DNA from: Symmachiella dynata
GTDB taxonomy: Bacteria > Planctomycetota > Planctomycetia > Planctomycetales > Planctomycetaceae
Direction: 5' to 3'
Length of the DNA stretch: 64,000 nt
NCBI RefSeq assembly: GCF_007747995.1
Contig: NZ_CP036276.1
Coordinates: 124,001 to 188,000 of the forward strand
Below are positions 19,493 to 21,990 of the stretch, one piece after another (position 1 is the stretch's first letter; each line of letters begins with the position of its first letter). The notes under the pieces are model-generated. The model made no database searches. It saw only the letters and a program-made list of their open reading frames with translations, and was not told the origin of the DNA. A program made the translations under genes and the position numbers.

Positions 19493-19717
19493 CAGTAGGA
19501 TTTCTCAAAAACGACCGACGGATACATCGACGGCAGCTGCGCGCGACGTGATCAATACCAGTCATAGCAGCGCGGATGGGATTGTCGATGGTTCGCGAAT
19601 CGTGGCGCGGCGGGTTTCGATGTTTGTCTGTTGTCGGCCTGTTGTCGATAGCGACAATTCGCGATTTCAGCGTACATTCCGCACGAATTAGCCAATACCG
19701 TCATGGAGGATGGTTCA

Positions 19718-20275
19718 ATGGCGACGGCCACCACCGACGACCCCGGCAATGACACAGCGGAGGAACTTCCCGATGATCTGGAAGTCGCTCACGCCGCAGT
19801 CGCCGCACGCAAAAAAAAGATCAAGGCCGCCGGTTTAGTCGTCGGGCTCACGGTCGTCATGATGGGCGTCGGCTATATGTTTATGCCCGAAAGCAGTGCG
19901 GAAAATCTTGCTGAGGAGGATGAGTCCGCCATTGCCGCATCCGAAATCGAGGACGATACCGCCGAAGTCGAGATTGGCCAATTCAATTGCACCAACTCCC
20001 GCGCAGGGATCGACATCAGCGTCCACGTGAATTTTTCGTTGGTTGCCGAAGTCCAAAAAAGCAACGAACAAAATTTTCTGGATGCCAAAGATTTGTACGA
20101 GGCGCGCATCCGTGACATCGTCAATCGCGTGGCCCGCAGCGCCAGTCGCGACGACCTCAATGACCCGGCTTTAGACACACTCAAACGTGAATTTCGCGAA
20201 GGTATCAATCGCATCGTTCGCAAACATTATATCGTGAAGATCCATATTCCCGACTGGCAAACGATGGAACGTTAA
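19718..20275 (+). CDS. fliL: FliL-like stator-associated protein
   Basis: This is a 185-aa protein from ATG 19718, preceded by GGAGGA at 19705-19710 with good spacing; an upstream ATG at 19703 would place that SD inside the coding region. There is one transmembrane helix (AAGLVVGLTVVMMGVGYMF, about 38-57), a short acidic linker, and a C-terminal domain with INRIVRKHYIVKIHIPDWQT. FliL rings encircle the stator and raise its torque. The sequence is divergent, so the call also uses position, between motB and fliN. A short inverted repeat (TTGTCG/CGACAA, 19642-19657) lies upstream. Confidence 0.75.
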   Translation: MATATTDDPGNDTAEELPDDLEVAHAAVAARKKKIKAAGLVVGLTVVMMGVGYMFMPESSAENLAEEDESAIAASEIEDDTAEVEIGQFNCTNSRAGIDISVHVNFSLVAEVQKSNEQNFLDAKDLYEARIRDIVNRVARSASRDDLNDPALDTLKREFREGINRIVRKHYIVKIHIPDWQTMER

Positions 20276-20335: not shown

Positions 20336-21115
20336 GTGTCCGACGAAAACGATGATCTCCTCGATCCGGCAGAAATCGAAGCACTGCTCAATGAAGCAGG
20401 CGCAGGTGACGCACCGACTCCGCCGCCGCCACAAGCAACTGCGCCAGGCGCAGAAGCTTCTGCAAACGCTCCGGATACACCCGAGGCGGAGAGTGACCAA
20501 TTGTCGCAGGACGATTTGGATCGTCTCATGGCCGAAGCGACAAGCGGTACCGCGCCACTGGAATCCAAGCCAAAACCGCCGGCAGAAGCCGCGCCGCCGC
20601 AGGACAACGACGGCGATTTGCTTGACCCCAGTGAAATCGAACAACTACTCAAAGCGCAAGAACCAGGTGCTGCTGCCAGTCCCACAGCCGCTGCGACCTC
20701 TGCGCCGGCGTCGAACCTTTCCGCCGAAACCGACGAATTGCTGCGACAAGCCGAAGCAGGATTGGCGGCCGCCATTTCCACCGATGGCGGGGCACAAGGC
20801 AATCCGGGACCCTTTGGAAATCCGGAGCCTTACACCTTTCAAGAATTTGGGAAATCCACGTCTAGTGCGGACAATGTCGCGCTGAATACTTTGCACGACG
20901 TGGAATTGGACATTCGCATCGAACTGGGCCGCACGGAATTGTTGATCGAAGAAGTCCTGCAACTCCGCGATGGGTCGGTGGTCCCGCTCGACAAACTGGC
21001 CGGCGATCCCGTCGACGTGATCGTCAACGAACGCCTGATTGCCCGTGGCGAGGTTTTGGTTCTCAACGACAATTTCTGCGTACGAATCACGGAAATCCTA
21101 CCACCGCATCTCTAG
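20336..21115 (+). CDS. fliN: FliN with four N-terminal FliM-type EIDALL peptides
   Basis: This 259-aa protein starts at GTG (20336, after GAGAG). The C-terminal part (about 175-259: [70 protein letters not shown]) is a complete SpoA/FliN domain. Usual FliN is about 80-140 aa. The extra N-terminal region is disordered and has repeated short motifs at residues about 8-18 ([11 protein letters not shown]), 56-65 ([10 protein letters not shown]), 95-105 ([11 protein letters not shown]) and 128-136 (LSAETDELL), resembling the CheY-P-binding N-terminus of FliM (SQAEIDALL). No fliM lies between fliL and fliN, where it usually is. Likely a C-ring switch component with a multivalent CheY-binding tail. 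Confidence 0.92.
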
Positions 21116-21183: not shown

Positions 21184-21990
21184 ATGACACGAAACCTATT
21201 ATTTGCATTCGTCGGACTATGTGTTTGGGCAGGGTGCGCGCTGCCCGCTGTCTGTCTCGCCGCTCCTCCGAAAACCGCATCCGGAAATTCAAATCCTCCT
21301 GCAGTCATCGGTGAAGCGCAAAAACAGGGCTTTCAAAATCCGCTTGACAAAAAGTTTCCGCAGGCGAGTACTGCTAAGAAATCATCGGCATCCTCAACTG
21401 AGACACAGCGCAAGAAAAAAGGGGGATCGTTGGTGCAATCGGCCTTGGGCTTAGCATTCGTGCTCTGCCTGATTCTCATCGTCGCTGCTTGGGCCAAACG
21501 ACATTTGCCGCAAGCCAACAGCGCACTTCCCTCTGAAGCGGTGCAAATTCTCGGACAGCGGGCCGTCGGACAACGGCAGATGATTCAATTGATTCGATGT
21601 GGCTCACGGATATTAGTCCTCGGCGCGACTCCCAATGGGCTGACCACGTTGAGCGAGATCACCGATCCGGTCGAGGTGGATTATCTCGCCGGGTTATGCC
21701 GCCAGGACCACCCCCATTCGGTCACATCCGCTTTTTCGCGTCTCTTTCAAAATTATCGCGACATGAGCGACGATTCTACTCCGCCCGCCAACCCAATGGG
21801 GGCGCTGTCGTCGAAGCTGCGACGGACTGATCCGGCGACGGATGTACCTCAAAATCCGCCGCATCAATCCATGACCGAAACATCAGCTGAAACGCCTGAG
21901 CGTTCACTGAAGGAGCGATTGGGCCGCCTCGGTCCGTCTGGCGATTCCTCGCGGTTCTCGCCGCCCGGCGCGGAGGGTTCTTATGAGTAA
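21184..21990 (+). CDS. fliO: FliO, export gate assembly protein
   Basis: This 268-aa protein has a signal peptide or N-terminal hydrophobic segment (LLFAFVGLCVWAGCALPAVCLA), a Gly/Ser/Pro-rich periplasmic linker, one transmembrane helix (about 82-100, ALGLAFVLCLILIVAAWA), then a small cytoplasmic domain with SEAVQILGQRAVGQRQMIQLIRCGSRILVLGATPNGLTTLSEI, the FliO family pattern. The C-terminal tail (about 180-268) is longer than in enteric FliO and disordered. FliO helps FliP assemble. Its last 8 bp overlap fliP, so the two are translationally coupled. Confidence 0.85.
   Translation: MTRNLLFAFVGLCVWAGCALPAVCLAAPPKTASGNSNPPAVIGEAQKQGFQNPLDKKFPQASTAKKSSASSTETQRKKKGGSLVQSALGLAFVLCLILIVAAWAKRHLPQANSALPSEAVQILGQRAVGQRQMIQLIRCGSRILVLGATPNGLTTLSEITDPVEVDYLAGLCRQDHPHSVTSAFSRLFQNYRDMSDDSTPPANPMGALSSKLRRTDPATDVPQNPPHQSMTETSAETPERSLKERLGRLGPSGDSSRFSPPGAEGSYE

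Follow-up and report, generated by a model that had tools for sequence, protein, structure and literature searches.

FliY of Bacillus, Thermotoga and clostridia consists of a FliN domain and a CheC-like domain, and in Bacillus and others it carries an EIDALL peptide at the N-terminus. Phosphorylated CheY (CheY-P) is reported to bind the EIDALL motif of both FliM and FliY (PMC9126983), and a CheY-binding motif has been described at the N-terminus of B. subtilis FliY (PMC8809382). Full or degenerate EIDAL sequences are also reported to occur sporadically in FliN and FliY, in 12 organisms, by a survey whose groups are spirochetes, Firmicutes, Epsilon- and Gammaproteobacteria (Henderson et al., 2020; PMC6946799).

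A single EIDAL peptide in FliN is therefore already known, and what appears to be new in the FliN described here, from the planctomycete Symmachiella dynata, is the presence of several copies in one tail. These putative docking peptides share with the EIDALL/EIDAL peptide of FliM a similar length and hydrophobic/acidic spacing, a first copy near the N-terminus and a disordered linker behind it. They differ in standing in FliN, in being three in number and in having DP in place of SQ in copies 1 and 3. Like FliY, the protein combines a FliN-type domain with an N-terminal EIDALL-type peptide, but it has no CheC-like phosphatase domain and carries three peptides vs. one in a FliY-like protein of Acetoanaerobium. 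As in the surveyed cases an EIDAL sequence is found in a FliN, whereas the available text of that survey mentions neither planctomycetes nor multiple copies (PMC6946799). A literature search by titles and the beginnings of abstracts, with coverage mostly outside subscription journals, showed among the matches listed no report of FliN tails with several copies.

A FliN Gene Between fliL and fliO

The window, i.e., the whole stretch of DNA that was analyzed (64,000 nucleotides), contains fliN with the following features and direct neighbors:

20336..21115, + strand: fliN, 259 aa, GTG start; peptide-bearing N-terminal tail, then the FliN domain
20888..21100, + strand: FliN (SPOA, FliMN_C) domain, residues 185–255, by Pfam and NCBIfam
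20834..20860, + strand: conserved aromatic element preceding the FliN domain, about residues 167–175, from the alignment of relatives and a solved FliN
19703..20275, + strand: fliL, directly upstream of fliN, by profile match
21184..21990, + strand: fliO, directly downstream of fliN, by profile match

The gene start was placed at the first start codon that follows the upstream stop. The C-terminus is a complete FliN domain, as the initial annotation had stated: residues 185–255 match Pfam FliMN_C (E 8.3e-24, 83.8 bits, cut-off 23.8) and also lie above the cut-off of NCBIfam TIGR02480 (99.4 bits vs. 84.05). The alignment with the solved FliN 8umd_D begins at the aromatic element and pairs residues 167–257 with residues 38–128 of the chain. 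The surrounding flagellar cluster comprises FliF, FliG, FliH, FliI, FliJ, FliK, MotA, MotB and FliL, then FliO and FliP, and also holds FlgD-, FlgE-, FliQ-, FliR- and FlhB-like ORFs (named by eye). Both the SPOA domain over its curated cut-off and the place in a flagellar cluster with fliL, fliO and fliP class the protein as a FliN.

The FliM middle domain (PF02154) is absent from the protein, for which Pfam returned FliMN_C only. Classification as FliY was rejected, as Pfam found no CheC-like domain and the FliY model gave 104 bits (cut-off 218).

Three FliM-Type Peptides and a Separate Helix in the Tail

The tail had been described in the initial annotation as carrying four FliM-like peptides. 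Three of these hold up, while the fourth is the start of a different helix:

20357..20389, + strand: peptide 1, 11 residues (8–18), near the N-terminus as in FliM; score 14.7; aligned in relatives
20498..20530, + strand: peptide 2, 11 residues (55–65); score 9.1; aligned in the own genus only
20618..20650, + strand: peptide 3, 11 residues (95–105); score 16.9; paired in the alignment with the second copy in other genera
20717..20776, + strand: separate conserved helix, residues 128–147, the start of which was mistaken for a fourth peptide

The scores come from a FliM-only matrix built from 12 FliM N-terminal peptide forms of the order together with those of T. maritima and E. coli. The matrix was applied to 147 distinct FliN tails and to 100 shuffles of each. 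Among the resulting 14,700 shuffles, the best score of the shuffled tail reached that of peptide 1 in 0.08%, that of peptide 2 in 2.1% and that of peptide 3 in none (0/14,700). By this matrix the sequence pattern of a CheY-binding FliM-type peptide is present in three copies. The fourth candidate, LSAETDELL, scored 1.4, a value reached by 66% of the shuffles. It forms the start of the helix at 128–147 and aligns, among 33 chosen FliNs, with "E.LL.QAEA.LAAA" of relatives, which is present also in FliNs with a single peptide (L015, L016, L018, and L019).

An AlphaFold model made from the 33-FliN alignment has mostly low-confidence linkers (mean pLDDT 65.5, pTM 0.30). It predicts separate peptide helices at residues 11–22, 58–70, and 98–108, and one 20-residue helix at 128–147. 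Based on the matrix scores against shuffles, the alignment and the predicted helices, we rejected four equal peptides and describe the tail as three peptides and one different helix. In the alignment, this helix (E.LL.QAEA.LAAA) and the aromatic element next to it are conserved across a wider range of FliNs than the extra peptides.

At the DNA level no family of direct repeats was found in 20336–20890 by a repeat search with default settings, and a recent DNA duplication in this fliN was rejected for that reason.

We also scanned the whole genome with peptide profiles. A profile of 17 peptides (own included) gave E < 1e-3 only for the three FliN copies and one FliM, the next match being a MutL-like protein (named by eye) with E 0.04. 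With a profile that lacked the FliN peptides of the own genus, the E-values were 2.4e-5 for copy 1, 1.4e-4 for copy 3, 1.2e-4 for FliM and 0.013 for the MutL-like protein, and copy 2 was not found. When the profile was built from FliM peptides alone, the matches up to E 10 comprised FliM and two chance-level ones but none of the FliN copies. The FliN peptides are therefore a recognizably different version of the motif (LLxPxEIExLL vs. VLSQxEVExLL). The MutL-like protein (G000:C1:1311388, L269) holds LSPEEIDSLLEQR (LSPEEIDSLL), close to the peptide; as the same pattern occurs there, the pattern alone is not CheY-specific.

A third FliN-domain protein of 282 aa is encoded in the genome (G000:C1:7172698–7172907, minus strand; L004 1462–2310). 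It scores below both the FliN and the SctQ cut-offs, has no peptide by the profile scans, and its neighbors within 3.2 kb are not flagellar-looking (by eye).

FliM Is Encoded Elsewhere in the Genome

The gene fliM is often placed right after fliL. It had been noted as missing here, and indeed no fliM lies between fliL and fliN at this locus, but the genome, a single contig of 7,767,809 bases rated 100% complete, does contain one. With fliN at 0.14 Mb, this single FliM is found at 5,812,601 and matches PF02154 (E 1.6e-65) as well as TIGR01397 (320 bits vs. a cut-off of 219.6), and absence of fliM from the genome was accordingly rejected. The gene is flanked by proA-like and infC-like genes (by eye). 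The N-terminus of the protein is MADVLSQSEVESLLSALDP with its own peptide VLSQSEVESLL, for which phmmer gave an alignment (E 0.11) with the FliM peptide from T. maritima in the solved entry 4iga, taken here to be a FliM peptide–CheY complex.

The two genes are at least 188 kb apart, by the shorter way round, in all 16 genomes of the order (the own one among them) that consist of a single contig and have E 1e-20 or better for both fliM and fliN, so that a displaced fliM is usual in the order. The earlier suggestion that FliN partly takes over the role of FliM fails, since there is an ordinary fliM with its own peptide and its displacement is what is usually seen in the order.

The peptide of FliM itself is nearly constant: all 60 inspected FliM loci above 150 bits in the order keep it (own gene counted twice). 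Excluded from this count are eight FliM loci of 150 bits or less, all from genus g52. None of these eight matches the strict FliM pattern; seven have a changed peptide such as ILSQSEVEAVLSSL (by eye) and one (L219) is without any. FliM of this genus is divergent and in G149 lacks any recognizable peptide, and three FliN-domain matches in the genus contain one in-frame stop each (G135:C20:3241923, G149:C1:6612037, and G146:C18:56696).

The other single-contig genomes gave weak matches only; among them, weak FliM-like and FliN-like genes are adjacent in G014 and G157 and 11 kb apart in G091, and these look like a different gene pair. A weak FliM-like gene beside a weak FliN-like gene is also seen in several genera (e.g., G117:C338 2494–3709, G134:C78, and G020:C267). 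The latter pairs differ strongly from the flagellar one and perhaps belong to another export or secretion system.

Conservation and Copy Number of the Peptides

Among 170 genomes, 136 had a FliN match, and the 73 genomes of the order with the strongest matches (own included) were used. Leaving out the remaining 63 (from G136, E 7.2e-23, downwards) biases the set against weak or divergent FliNs. A cut at 50 bits for the FliN domain gave 154 loci and 147 distinct tails. The loci from named contigs are the best 80 of 167, retrieved with patterns that included pieces of the own tail. Alignment A4 comprises the own FliN and 32 of 38 prepared relatives, six of which (L028, L147, L159, L166, L172, and L176) were left out for having no clear peptide or a doubtful start. 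The N-terminal position of the peptide is partly built in for the A4 relatives, because a script set their start codons close to the place where the pattern first matched.

Scoring by the FliM-only matrix gave at least one window over the 95th-percentile shuffle threshold in 87 of the 147 distinct tails (≈6 expected) and two or more in 47 (0.1 expected). A stricter peptide pattern, written after the tails had been inspected, was found at least once in 70/147 tails, with 0.27 expected from shuffles, and twice or more in 44/147, which was seen in none of 200 shuffled sets. The original observation of several FliM-like peptides in one FliN is thus real, above shuffles and conserved in relatives.

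By the stricter pattern, the 73 FliNs of the order (best of 136) contain three copies in 19 cases, two in 13, one in 19 and none in 22. At least one peptide is therefore present in 51/73 and two or three in 32/73. Counted by genus, at least one copy occurs in some member of 27 of the 32 genera and at least two in 15. Copy number varies from 0 to 3 between genera, and also within genera g2, g5, g10 and g52.

A further 74 distinct tails came from the named contigs (loci: best 80 of 167), all but two with planctomycete titles; their class labels were assigned from the record titles. The 52 titled as Phycisphaera-, Sedimentisphaera- or Humisphaera-type have mostly no copy (43), with one copy in four, two in one and three in four. 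The corresponding numbers for the other 22 are none in 12, one in three, two in two, three in four and five in one. This last tail (L080, from another planctomycete) has five copies by the stricter pattern and six by the FliM-only matrix. It contains a tandem array visible in the DNA, with units of 26–29 residues (78–87 bases) that match at 87% and 84%, and the array is recent.

Within the own genus, two congeners keep 11/11 and 10/11 residues of peptide 2. A more distant congener keeps 9, 10, and 9 of the 11 residues of the three peptides (28/33), compared to 60/126 in the linkers, 5/11 in the supposed fourth peptide and 73/77 in the FliN domain. The initial annotation had named a normal fliM with its own peptide, together with poor conservation of the FliN repeats, as what would count against its reading. 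The former was found; the latter applies only in part, as copies 1 and 3 occur widely, an aligned copy 2 is seen only in the own genus and copy 4 is no peptide.

The wording of the copies follows lineage, with LLxPxEIExLL in the order and LSQADIDAAL or VDQSDIDAMF elsewhere, and several genera have additions of their own. This suggests that the FliN copies may have grown repeatedly and independently.

As a small control outside the planctomycetes we used ten FliN-domain proteins of other phyla from plasmid records, hand-picked from 60 listed of 105. One of the ten, the clostridial FliY-like protein of Acetoanaerobium, has a single EIDALL-type peptide, and by the pattern none of these ten has more than one. 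The Pseudarthrobacter tail scores 7.8 vs. the threshold of 7.5, on a stretch without the pattern.

Possible Binding Partners

Growing C rings take up FliM/FliN or FliY with the help of the ATPase FlhG. CheY and FlhG are the two kinds of protein known to use the N-terminus of FliM, and both are likely to be present in this genome. It encodes two stand-alone proteins of CheY type, both with 44% identity to CheY from E. coli; the best NCBIfam model of both is CheY, with both below the strict cut-off. One of the two genes precedes a CheR-like ORF (by eye). A single CheA of 868 aa, the end of which is matched by response-regulator models, adjoins CheW-like and CheB-like proteins (CheB by eye). CheA exceeds the PF02895 cut-off, while it and the CheW-like protein both fall below the strict NCBIfam ones. 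FlhF is also encoded (213.9 bits vs. a cut-off of 174.15), and it is adjoined by a 311-aa MinD-like ATPase in the place of FlhG, with an FlhA-like ORF there too (by eye). The ATPase passes no NCBIfam cut-off, and the name FlhG refers to its place and fold class only.

Across the 73 genomes, FliN peptides were found in 40/54 with CheA and 11/19 without (Fisher p 0.25). This correlation is unreliable since CheA may be split or missed in draft genomes, and at least six of the 19 genomes "without" CheA show CheA-like pieces (G022, G039, G046, G087, G097, and G143). Conversely, three genomes of genus g15 (G047, G048, and G050) have a FliN without peptides despite having CheA. As the FliN peptides do not track CheA, FlhG may also be considered as a partner.

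Discussion

We put the chances at about even that the protein is a genuine FliN whose tail forms a flexible string of FliM-type docking helices, present besides a normal FliM, with CheY-P as the most likely partner. The several peptides are real, beyond chance and conserved in relatives, which makes multivalent docking plausible; that the FliN peptides bind CheY-P is what we infer. In the assembled C ring each FliM subunit would offer one peptide, while FliN, with probably about three subunits per FliM in this organism, would contribute three peptides each. In one set of PDB entries, 317 FliM and 951 FliN chains give a ratio of 1:3. Three FliN per FliM with three peptides each would amount to about nine FliN peptides per FliM peptide. 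The tails could thereby raise the local concentration of CheY-P at the lower C ring through multivalent contacts, and may have an effect on switching.

In E. coli, a second site for CheY is reported to lie on FliN, and a CheY–FliM-peptide fusion is reported to associate with FliN (PMC7355467). The FliY of T. maritima contains a FliN-like domain, and the same source reports no preference of this FliY for activated over inactive CheY (PMC7355467). This result, together with the failure of the profile without own-genus sequences to find copy 2, slightly weakens the reading as a CheY-docking tail.

The peptides might instead, or in addition, dock FlhG (FleN/YlxH), in which case the tail would serve flagellar assembly or number control. 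We consider this rather unlikely, although FlhF lies over its cut-off with the MinD-like ATPase right beside it. FlhG is also reported to contact FliM of monotrichous bacteria through the N-terminus of FliM; in B. subtilis its reported contact is FliY, a homologue of FliN (PMC12826062). Such a role would explain the peptides in the 11 of 19 genomes where CheA was not detected, at least six of the 19 showing CheA-like pieces. The ATPase, however, is called FlhG from place and fold class while passing no NCBIfam cut-off, FlhG of monotrichous bacteria is reported to bind FliM but not FliN (PMC12826062), and assembly has no obvious need for growth in copy number.

It is unlikely that only the first peptide is functional, with the further copies being near-neutral expansions of a disordered tail. 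The range of 0 to 3 copies between genera, the variation within g2, g5, g10 and g52, the presence of one or no copy in 41/73 FliNs and the recent tandem array of L080 would all fit such an expansion, but copies 2 and 3 have been retained across the genus despite divergence of the linkers, and the place of copy 3 is common to other genera. More improbable still is that the peptides bind another part of the C ring (FliM, FliN itself or FliH) as assembly or spacing elements: the widely conserved helix 128–147 and aromatic element may well do so, but the model, with its pTM of 0.30 and low-confidence linkers, shows no packing on the FliN domain either way, and the likeness of the peptides to the CheY peptide of FliM would then be a coincidence.

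If the peptides do dock CheY-P, planctomycete FliN may carry a multivalent and evolvable CheY-P antenna. Lineages would have gained and lost copies, apparently by independent growth in different branches, with a valency of zero to about five per FliN next to one FliM peptide that hardly varies, and copy number would tune the sensitivity of the switch. We advance this idea tentatively, as one that is possible but has the chances somewhat against it.

It is reported to be still under study how the C ring relays the binding of CheY at the N-terminus of FliM and what makes the switch so steep (PMC7355467). FliNs that differ naturally in peptide number, from zero through one, two and three to more, beside a nearly unchanged FliM peptide, would provide a ready-made test. 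With them one could ask whether CheY recruitment and the sensitivity of the switch depend on how many docking sites there are, or whether the peptides act, by way of FlhG, in building the C ring.
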